From positions 1,609,001 to 1,673,000 of the forward strand of contig NZ_CP085167.1 in the NCBI RefSeq assembly GCF_022788715.1: a DNA stretch of 64,000 bases. The letters run 5' to 3'. The position numbers and the translations under genes are program-made. Below the pieces are notes generated by a model that saw only the letters and a program-made list of their open reading frames with translations, was not told the origin of the DNA and made no database searches. Below, piece by piece: positions 60,355 through 63,456 of the stretch (its first letter is position 1; every line of letters begins with the position of its first letter). This stretch comes from Sulfitobacter sp. DSM 110093 (GTDB lineage: Bacteria; Pseudomonadota; Alphaproteobacteria; Rhodobacterales; Rhodobacteraceae).

Positions 60355-60834
60355 TTACTTCCGGAACGAATCCAGCGACACGATCTCGGCGTCTTTGGAT
60401 GGCTCCTCCGCGACTTCCAACTCATCTTCGTCAGTCTGGTCGAGTGCGTTCTCATCGGTCTCGTCGTCGTCTTCTTCGGTTTCTTGCTGTTCAAACCGCA
60501 GACCAAATTCAACCGATGGGTCCACAAACGTGCGGATGGCATCGTAAGGGATATACAGCGGCTCTGGCGCGTCTCCGAAGTTCAGCGTGATCGCGAAACC
60601 ATCTGGCGTCACGTCCAGCCCATCAAACCAATGTTGTATGACCACCGTCATCTCACCGGGGTAGCGGTCAGATAGCCAATCGGCCAGCTCCGCATCCGGA
60701 TGGGACGTATCAAAGGTGATAAAGAAATGGTGATTCCCCGGCAGGCCATTGTCAGAAATATCCTGTAAAACCTTGCGGATAAGACCCCGCATGGCTTCGT
60801 GCATTAGGTTGCCGTAATCAATGCTGCGGCTCAT
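60355..60834 (-). CDS. sspB: SspB-type ClpXP adaptor (alpha form)
   Basis: The ATG giving MSRSIDYGNLMHEAMRGLIR yields 159 residues. The folded core (residues 1-105) has HHFFITFDTSHPDAELADWL and MTVVIQHWFDGLDVTPDGFA, as in alphaproteobacterial SspB. An acidic linker (ETEEDDDETDENALDQTDED) leads to the ClpX-docking tail EIVSLDSFRK. It delivers ssrA-tagged proteins to ClpXP; the tag-encoding ssrA gene lies 1.4 kb away. Confidence 0.94.
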   Translation of the reverse strand: MSRSIDYGNLMHEAMRGLIRKVLQDISDNGLPGNHHFFITFDTSHPDAELADWLSDRYPGEMTVVIQHWFDGLDVTPDGFAITLNFGDAPEPLYIPYDAIRTFVDPSVEFGLRFEQQETEEDDDETDENALDQTDEDELEVAEEPSKDAEIVSLDSFRK

Positions 60835-60907
60835 TCTTCTCTCCGGTCCGGGCGATGGGCAGGGATCAGCATACCCCATTCACGGGCGAGTGAAAGGGGG
60901 CGCGGCG

Positions 60908-62152
60908 CTAAATCGCGGTTAACAGCAAGGCAAGGACCGCGAGCAGGGCCATAGAGGTCACAAAACCGCGCTTGAGCCCCAGCATCAAAACAGCGGCGAC
61001 TAATGTCAGCACCGCGGCCAAAAGGTTAAAGCTCCCCCAGACCGGGGTGGGCAGGGCGAGGAGGGTCGCCGGATCGACACGGTCAAACAACACATGCAAT
61101 GAAAACCAGACAGAAAGATTGGCAATCACGCCGACCACCGCCGCGGTGATCGCCCGCAACGCACCCGCGATACGCGGCTGCGCCGAAAGCGCTTCGAGGT
61201 AGGGACCGGCAAGGAAGATCCACAAAAAACACGGTGTAAATGTCACCCAAAGCGTCAGCATCCCGGCGGCAAGCGCGCCCCACGGCCCGCTTTGCGCAAA
61301 ACCCGCCAGCATTCCCACAAACTGCGTCACAAGGATCAGCGGTCCGGGGGTGGTTTCTGCCAGACCGAGCGCATCGATCATCTGATCCGTGTCGATCCAG
61401 CCGAAATCCTGCACAACCGTCTGCGTCATATAGGCCAGAACCGCATAAGCGCCGCCAAAGGTGACCACTGCGAGTTTCGAAAAGAACAGCCCTAATTGCA
61501 GCAGGAATTCATTCCCCAAAAGCGCCAATATAACGAGGGGTGCCGCCCAGAGAGCGCCCCAGATTAGCATGGTTCGAACGCTGTGGGCACGGGGCAGCTG
61601 CACATTTTCAGGCGCGGCGGCGGGTTCTTTTGCGATCATTCCGACGGCAGCGGCCCCCAAAATGATCAGAGGGAAAGGTAGCCCGAAAACAAAAAGCGCG
61701 ATGAAAGACCCAAGCGCCAAGGCCCATCCCAATCTGCCCTGAAGCGCCTTTGAAGAAACCTTGATAAGCGCTTGGAATACGACGATAATAACAGCCGCCT
61801 TTATCCCCAGAAATGCGGTTTGAACCAGCAGCAACTGCCCGTACCACGCATAAAGCAGCGCTAGAACGGCAATAAAAATCGCACCGGGTACAACGAACAG
61901 CATACCACCCAAAAGCCCCCCGGCCACGCCGCGCAGTCGCCACCCGGCATAGGTGGCAAGTTGCATCGCTTCCGGCCCGGGCAACAACATGCAGAGCGAT
62001 AGAGCGCGCAGGAAGGTCTGGTCGCTCAGCCAAGGGCGATCTTCGACCAATTCGCGGTGCATCACAGCGATTTGCGCCGCCGGGCCGCCGAAGGACATCA
62101 GGCCAACGCGCCCGAACACGCGAAACATCTCGGGCCAATTGGGCGGGGTCAT
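60908..62152 (-). CDS. chrA: Chromate transporter, CHR family (two-domain)
   Basis: The 414-residue protein has two CHR domains. SFGGPAAQIAVMHRELVED and its repeat TFGGAYAVLAYMTQTVVQDF both contain the conserved FGGxxA motif, with about ten spans in all. The PGPEAMQLATYAGWRLRG and TTPGPLILVTQFVGMLAGF segments follow each motif. The family exports chromate, but many members are uncharacterised, so resistance is not shown. Confidence 0.92.
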   Translation of the reverse strand: MTPPNWPEMFRVFGRVGLMSFGGPAAQIAVMHRELVEDRPWLSDQTFLRALSLCMLLPGPEAMQLATYAGWRLRGVAGGLLGGMLFVVPGAIFIAVLALLYAWYGQLLLVQTAFLGIKAAVIIVVFQALIKVSSKALQGRLGWALALGSFIALFVFGLPFPLIILGAAAVGMIAKEPAAAPENVQLPRAHSVRTMLIWGALWAAPLVILALLGNEFLLQLGLFFSKLAVVTFGGAYAVLAYMTQTVVQDFGWIDTDQMIDALGLAETTPGPLILVTQFVGMLAGFAQSGPWGALAAGMLTLWVTFTPCFLWIFLAGPYLEALSAQPRIAGALRAITAAVVGVIANLSVWFSLHVLFDRVDPATLLALPTPVWGSFNLLAAVLTLVAAVLMLGLKRGFVTSMALLAVLALLLTAI

Positions 62153-62276: not shown

Positions 62277-62591
62277 AATAAAAGTGCAGGTTTCTGTTGC
62301 CAGGTACCTGCGAACCCCGCCTTAAGCTGCAAAGCCTAAGGACTTAGATTTCAGTCGCTGAAACCGCTTACGCGGCCATCGCAACTGGAGCACGATTGTC
62401 ATTTGCAATTGTACAGTTTGTACCGATAACGGTGGTAACTCACCGAGACAAAGCAACCCCTTTAGACGTTCGTCGATCCTATTTCGGCCCCATGATCCCC
62501 AAATGAAGGATGTTTGGTGGAGCCGCCGGGTACCGCCCCCGGGTCCGAACCGCTTATTACGAGCGCGTTTATGTCTATAGTCCCGAAGGAC
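62277..62591 (-). ncRNA. ssrA: Two-piece (circularly permuted) tmRNA
   Basis: Read on the minus strand, the acceptor piece (about 62591-62515) starts with GTCC-TTCG-GGAC and ends CGGCTCCACCA. A 23-base spacer (62514-62492) is removed. The coding piece starts GGGGCCG at 62491, which pairs with CGGCTCC to make the acceptor stem. The tag frame at 62406-62368 reads ANDNRAPVAMAA then TAA. The arm CCGGG-GGCGGTA-CCCGG next to the CCA end is the T arm. The 3' boundary is inferred from a hairpin-like end and TTTT near 62280. It rescues stalled ribosomes with SmpB. Confidence 0.93.
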
Positions 62592-62597
62592 ATGACT

Positions 62598-62626
62598 AAA
62601 ATAGGGCTGGGGGGGATGAATTGCAA
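62598..62626 (-). promoter_or_regulatory. Promoter of ssrA
   Basis: On the minus strand, TTGCAA (62626-62621), a 17-base spacer and TATTTT (62603-62598) form a good housekeeping-type promoter. The first base of the RNA would be about 62591, the G that opens the GTCC-TTCG-GGAC hairpin. Confidence 0.75.
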
Positions 62627-62700
62627 GGGGTGCAGTTCTGGGAAATTTATGGGTGAACTTAAGCAGGCAAAGCATTGATAAGTCTATTTTTCGTCAGACA

Positions 62701-63456
62701 TCAACTTTCCAATCTAGCCTTCGCATCAAGCCGTGCAGCGCGGGCGGCGAGGACACTTTGCGCTAATTCTTGGGTCTCAACTTCAAGTGCGCTCAAACCT
62801 GCCGTAACCGCTGCACCATCCTGCGCCTCTGCCGCATCAGCGATATTTTGGTGCAGCGCGACGATGCGGGCACGATCCCGGGCGGTGAAGGTGATCATAT
62901 TCATCAACGGCTGCATGGCCTCGACCGCACCCGCAAGTTGATAGCTCAGCAAGGGGTTGCCCGCCCCATCGACCAACGCCCGATGAAAGGCGACATCCGA
63001 GGCGCAGAATGCTTCGTCGGTCAGCCCCGGCTGCGCCTGACGGTGGATTTCTGCGCGCATGGTGGCAAGGTGATCGGCTGTGCGCCGCTCCGCCGAAAGG
63101 GGCGCACAGGCCCGCTCAAGCGCATAGCGCGCTTCGCAGGCGGTCTCAAAACTCACGGCATTCATCGACAAAAGCAGCGTAGAGGTGGTGATCTGTTGGT
63201 CGTAAGCCTCTGGAAAGCTGAGCCGATTAACAAATGCACCGCCCGTGGCCCCGCGTTGGGTCCGGATTAACGATTGCGCTGCGAGACGCTTCAGTGCCTC
63301 CCGCACTGTTGGGCGAGAGACCTCAAATTGCTCGGCCAATTCGGCTTCTGACGGGAGACGTTGGTCTACGATCAACCGACCACCGACAATGGCATCACGG
63401 ATGGCAGAGGCGATCTGGGCTGACAGGTCGGCAGGGTTGCTTGGGTCGATTTTCAT
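62701..63456 (-). CDS. GntR-family regulator, FCD (FadR) subfamily
   Basis: The ATG giving MKIDPSNPADLSAQIASAIR yields 251 residues. The winged helix is at residues 10-75 (RLPSEAELAEQFEVSRPTVR, QSLIRTQRGATGGAFVNRL). The FCD ligand domain follows, with ACEARYALERACAPLSAERR and the metal-binding FHRALVDGAGN region. The ligand is probably an organic acid. It is divergent from a DUF2182 gene, with two near-identical 11-bp sites between them. Confidence 0.92.
   Translation of the reverse strand: MKIDPSNPADLSAQIASAIRDAIVGGRLIVDQRLPSEAELAEQFEVSRPTVREALKRLAAQSLIRTQRGATGGAFVNRLSFPEAYDQQITTSTLLLSMNAVSFETACEARYALERACAPLSAERRTADHLATMRAEIHRQAQPGLTDEAFCASDVAFHRALVDGAGNPLLSYQLAGAVEAMQPLMNMITFTARDRARIVALHQNIADAAEAQDGAAVTAGLSALEVETQELAQSVLAARAARLDAKARLES

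Follow-up and report, generated by a model that had tools for sequence, protein, structure and literature searches.

The minus strand of the window, the 64,000-nucleotide stretch of the Sulfitobacter sp. DSM 110093 genome that was analysed, almost certainly carries at ~62591–62283 the gene ssrA, encoding a circularly permuted two-piece tmRNA of the alphaproteobacterial kind. The proximity of this gene to sspB, which encodes a proteolytic adaptor, is not a product of chance. ARAGORN, run on the window, called a permuted tmRNA at 62277–62607 of the minus strand with the tag ANDNRAPVAMAA. A search of the interval with the Rfam model RF01849, which the original prediction had put forward as a check, returned a full-length match at 62630–62283 (minus strand; model positions 1–355) with a score of 315.2 bits, far above the cut-off of 50, and an E value of 3.8e-91. 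RF04321 matched at 62576–62368 of the same strand with 154.9 bits (cut-off 47, E value 7.4e-31), and the scores and E values of the two models exclude a chance match. Within the tmRNA clan, RF01849 is the sole family listed for the gene. The claim of a two-piece permuted tmRNA on the minus strand is thus borne out by ARAGORN, by the end-to-end model match, and by relatives that share the parts of the gene. The fold of the precursor is more stable than that of most shuffled sequences (z of -2.45, with 2 of 100 shuffles equally good), a result that carries little weight next to the covariance-model match. An open reading frame of 117 amino acids at 62322–62675, which runs across the gene and overlaps the tmRNA parts, was set aside. 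The gene upstream of ssrA, at 62701–63444 of the minus strand, encodes an FCD/GntR-family regulator according to a profile search and lies outside the system.

The order of the gene is permuted as had been claimed, with the acceptor end and its CCA (62515) located upstream of the start of the coding piece (62491) on the minus strand. The acceptor piece (62515–62591) is about 77 nt long from the predicted start and ends in an encoded CCA at 62517–62515. Reading base by base, the 3′ strand of the acceptor stem, CGGCTCC (62519–62525), continues as CGGCTCC-ACCA to 62515, and the complementary 5′ strand, GGGGCCG (62485–62491), provides the G3-U70 pair. A G-U at the third acceptor pair is the alanine identity mark. 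The two strands are separated by the 23-base spacer that had been described, at 62514–62492, which would be removed in maturation. The predicted coding piece (62283–62491) has ~209 nt, counted to where the Rfam match ends. It contains the tag reading frame at 62406–62368, where both ARAGORN and base-by-base reading recovered the predicted ANDNRAPVAMAA followed by the stop codon TAA; the frame has the Ala resume codon, the stop, and the AA end characteristic of the family. Folds and comparison with relatives place the terminal stem GCAGGU...ACCUGC with a CAACAGAA loop motif at 62286–62311, followed by A, C, and four U.

The promoter proposed for ssrA, TTGCAA-17-TATTTT, was found as described: a putative -35 box occupies 62621–62626 and a putative -10 box 62598–62603 of the minus strand, 17 nt apart. 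The assignment draws on the letters themselves and on comparative support. A pattern of TT or CTT, 15–19 nt, and TA(T/A)NN(T/A/G) occurs at the same place in 28 of 30 loci of the window's family, 57 of 66 named loci, and 26 of 27 and 50 of 58 loci in two class sets; in mononucleotide shuffles of the family and named upstream stretches it occurs in 375 of 1920. A strict scan for promoters and terminators lists neither signal of ssrA, and by our count the promoter has eight of 12 matches, against the nine required by that scan. The sequence folds into a 5′ hairpin, GUCC-UUCG-GGAC (62580–62591), the stem letters of which vary on both sides among relatives in an alignment read by eye. The foot of the hairpin, G62591, lies seven nt below the -10 box, and the transcription start is predicted at ~62591. 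The starts given by ARAGORN (62607) and Rfam (62630) both fall within or above the promoter. At 62630–62592 the unpaired 5′ columns of RF01849 coincide with the -35 and -10 boxes, and the Rfam coordinates therefore probably overstate the 5′ end of the RNA. The first unpaired columns of the model appear to cover promoter and not transcribed sequence, because a start at G62591 gives pieces of 77 and 209 nt, near the 82 and 204 nt measured for ssrA of Sinorhizobium meliloti (Ulve et al. 2007, cited in PMC2245857). The -35 box begins at 62626; this position, which had been taken as the 5′ limit of the element, is not the end of the RNA.

The ssrA of the window is an ordinary gene of an already-known kind. 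It shares with the tmRNA of Caulobacter crescentus and other RF01849 members (Keiler et al. 2000, cited in PMC3985003) the permuted order with the acceptor piece first, the short spacer, the tag frame, the alanine identity pair, and the full-length model match, but differs from them in the middle of the tag (RAPVAM) and the letters of the spacer, both of which are variable in the family. The tmRNAs of betaproteobacteria and cyanobacteria (RF01850 and RF01851) have the same two-piece plan; however, they belong to other clades of permuted forms (PMC11915505). The original prediction implied that such a gene is rare; it is usual for the class, as RF01849 matches in 233 of 241 class genomes, 231 of them above the cut-off, and in 142 of 149 genomes of the window's family. 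The 30 best-scoring of these 142 loci all have a seven-pair acceptor stem, with G-U as pair 3, and a spacer of 22–26 nt (23 nt in 15 of them). Pair 5 of the stem changes on both sides, being C-G in 22 loci, U-A in five, and A-U in three. Among the loci that could be located, the same rule finds a seven-base-pair stem in 64 of 67 of the named set and in 76 of 85 of the class set. The named relatives are the best 80 loci by SspB, among which Sulfitobacter species rank top, and 19 of the 67 with ssrA encode the exact tag of the window. Three genomes of the window's family that are 97–100 percent complete and contain sspB (G111, G131, and G109; L139–L141) gave no RF01849 match and matched RF00023 only below its cut-off. 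Four genomes placed in the class (G281, G364, G209, and G296) have a standard-form tmRNA, with RF00023 above its cut-off, and no SspB match.

The adaptor gene sspB had been placed 1.4 kb from ssrA, and it is real: its product contains an SspB domain (PF04386, 150.4 bits against a cut-off of 27; one match in the genome) and matches the PDB entries 2nys, 2qas, and 2qaz, with 2nys_A at an E value of 1e-34. The listed reading frame starts at 60879; however, many relatives align only from residue 16, and Met16 is therefore preferred, which makes 60834 the probable start and 60355–60834 of the minus strand the extent of the gene. A chrA-type chromate transporter gene (60908–62152, minus strand; PF02417, 239.3 bits) lies between ssrA and sspB. 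The PF04386 domain is common to the SspB of the window and the characterized alphaproteobacterial SspB (Lessner et al. 2007; PDB 2nys, 2qas, and 2qaz). Unlike in that system, chrA separates sspB from ssrA in the window, and the binding of the tag is predicted. Among the best 80 named loci, 68 have a chrA homologue, 67 have ssrA upstream of sspB, and 60 have both, which indicates that ssrA-chrA-sspB is the usual order in the nearest relatives. The search for ssrA at these loci covered a 3.5-kb flank, and the 13 loci without ssrA do not represent 13 losses because contig ends cut some of the 80.

The components of the window fit a complete tagging route. A sigma-70-type promoter at 62626–62598 would produce one precursor from about 62591, and processing would cut it after the CCA at 62515 and before G62491, discarding the 23-nt spacer. 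The likely enzymes are RNase P and tRNase Z, which have been suggested for the two-piece tmRNA family (PMC3985003). The acceptor and coding pieces would then be joined by base pairing into an alanine-accepting tRNA-like domain (G3-U70). As in the family generally, the tmRNA would enter stalled ribosomes together with SmpB and donate its alanine, and ANDNRAPVAMAA would be translated onto the unfinished protein, so that tagged proteins would end in AANDNRAPVAMAA. The full tag, A-ANDNRAPVAMAA, would combine an SspB-binding front (AANDN) with a ClpX-binding end (MAA), and the SspB encoded 1.4 kb downstream would hand the tagged proteins to ClpXP.

That the tagging RNA and its adaptor are near neighbours, as the original prediction had it, is correct for the window and reflects a conserved gene order. 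Of the 139 genomes of the window's family with both genes, nearly all of them from different genera, 114 have ssrA ahead of sspB on the same strand and within 10 kb, and in 24 of these 114 the distance is within 250 bp. In the other 25 genomes the two genes are on different contigs (19) or are far apart or differently arranged (six). The survey of the class drew on the best 150 of 233 genomes with ssrA and the best 150 of 225 genomes with SspB. Of the 114 genomes found in both sets, 106 have the same order within 10 kb; in six the genes lie on separate contigs, and in two they are far apart. Outside the window's family, 102 of 110 class genomes among the best 150 listed per search are linked, 81 within 250 bp, with a median distance of 122.5 bp from the end of the RNA model to the SspB domain in the 102. 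When one genome per family is counted and the window's family is excluded, order and strand are the same in 44 of 48 genomes, and 37 have the genes within 250 bp. For comparison with the rest of the phylum, SspB was searched in 70 genomes, 50 of them not of the class; 38 of the 50 were searched for tmRNA with RF00023 alone, and 36 have both genes. None of these 36 has ssrA and sspB linked within 10 kb; only ten have both on one contig, where the nearest pair is 236 kb apart. The orthology of SspB outside the class is less sure because 20 of the 38 matches are weak (E value above 1e-20).

The ssrA-sspB order looks old in Alphaproteobacteria and appears to have been opened in roseobacters by chrA, the direction of the change being our reading of the distribution. 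At several class loci, the first plausible start of sspB was found by eye ~25–60 bases past the terminal stem of the tmRNA. This leaves scant space for another promoter, which suggests possible read-through from ssrA into sspB. A run of at least four T after the terminal stem is present in nine of 30 family loci, ten of 27 and nine of 58 class loci, and eight of 66 named loci. Loci with adjacent and distant sspB do not clearly differ in how often they have such a run, and the T-run terminator was discarded as a sign of separate or joint transcription.

It is possible, although we propose it tentatively, that ssrA and sspB formed one ancestral unit in which the tmRNA precursor also serves as the messenger of sspB, so that maturation sets the supply of the adaptor; the tag would evolve in step with the pair, and AANDN would decay where sspB has been lost. 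The role of the precursor as a messenger is proposed because the tightest sspB starts lie a few tens of bases past the terminal stem, with scant room for a promoter. The neighbourhood could instead be an inherited gene order without function, a credible reading that we judge somewhat improbable. It is consistent with the 25 of 139 family genomes that are unlinked within 10 kb, although the 19 with the genes on different contigs may reflect assembly breaks, and with the U-run that has no clear link to adjacency. Both genes flanking the alphaproteobacterial tmRNA have been described as conserved, and their functional association was called uncertain (PMC2245857). By contrast, the same order and orientation are shared by 44 of 48 genomes representing other families of the class and, within the window's own family, by 114 of 139, which argues against a lack of function, and our own estimate of the chance is ~0.1 percent for one genome. 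In the accessible text of PMC2245857, sspB is not named as a flanking gene of tmRNA, nor is the pair named in the corresponding portions of PMC2573895, PMC3188799, PMC3985003, PMC4131195, PMC8138137, and PMC11476347. Literature searches, the scope of which excluded the likeliest source, Lessner et al. 2007, found no mention of the pair by name, and the word ANDNRAP had no literature match.

The proposal of one ancestral unit extends to the tag, the motif of which was scored as N at positions 2 and 4 from ARAGORN calls and a looser scan. Locus patterns of the form A-N-[D/N]-N cannot show loss of the motif because they require it. In a first set of 59 loci, 15 were without a parsable call, and all 44 called by ARAGORN have N at both positions, as do 59 of 60 class loci chosen for close ssrA-sspB. 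As a control for genome reduction, 25 SspB-bearing genomes of at most 1.7 Mb were scored; 16 have the motif, six lack it, and three are unclear. After two class searches, 21 genomes were without an SspB match: 14 have a permuted tmRNA above the cut-off, four have the standard form, and three have neither. The motif is present in three and lacking in 11 of the 14 permuted tags, and none of the four standard-form tags has it. Fisher's exact test comparing these 14 with the small SspB-bearing genomes that could be called gives a p of 0.005; however, the association is suggestive only, because the 14 represent few lineages (six genomes from one family, three from another, and five single). Two of the genomes without an SspB match, G249 and G287, keep the motif, the tag call of G249 being ambiguous, and G504, counted as lacking it, has ANQN two residues further on. 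Since congeners of all three have SspB, theirs may merely have been missed, and when they are left out, ten of 11 SspB-less permuted tags lack the motif. G169, which keeps ANDN without SspB, is a plain exception. At five loci (L168, L221, L223, L226, and L127), tags of 20–25 residues contain an N-x-N motif twice, as in ANSN...ANFN; the sequence that precedes the first Ala codon (for example, TATAGAT or TATAAAT) favours this long-tag reading.

The search with RF01849 found one full copy of ssrA in the genome, together with a second, partial match at G000:C2:336151–336278 (L002:1501–1628) with 45.7 bits. The fragment covers only some 60 nt at the 3′ end of a tmRNA and, compared by eye, differs from the copy in the window. 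It lies close to one end of a 336-kb contig, adjoins reading frames that resemble transposases by eye, and looks like the integration-site remnant of another ssrA allele. It is very improbable that the window harbours a decayed or duplicate tmRNA with the working copy elsewhere, because the partial match that could speak for it is below the cut-off, has no tag, acceptor, or ARAGORN call, and the window copy has intact parts with no second full copy in the assembly. In another genome, G013, a repeated ssrA 3′ end (L138, 3695–3846 and 10735–11082) bounds ~7 kb between ssrA and chrA, with a fragment of this kind located between ssrA and a chrA-like reading frame about 7 kb from ssrA. The arrangement resembles an island in ssrA formed by entry of an element at the 3′ end of the gene. 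Genes of tmRNA are well-known integration sites (PMC11915505; PMC11476347).

For the annotation of the genome, the gain is one further two-piece tmRNA, with a likely start shifted from 62626 to ~62591. What deserves a second look is the conservation of the ssrA-sspB pair. The class-wide linkage, against none of 36 genomes outside the class, offers a straightforward way to test whether bacteria co-regulate tag synthesis and the delivery of tagged proteins to ClpXP. The erosion of AANDN in genomes without SspB, if true, would reveal what maintains the conservation of the tag's front half.
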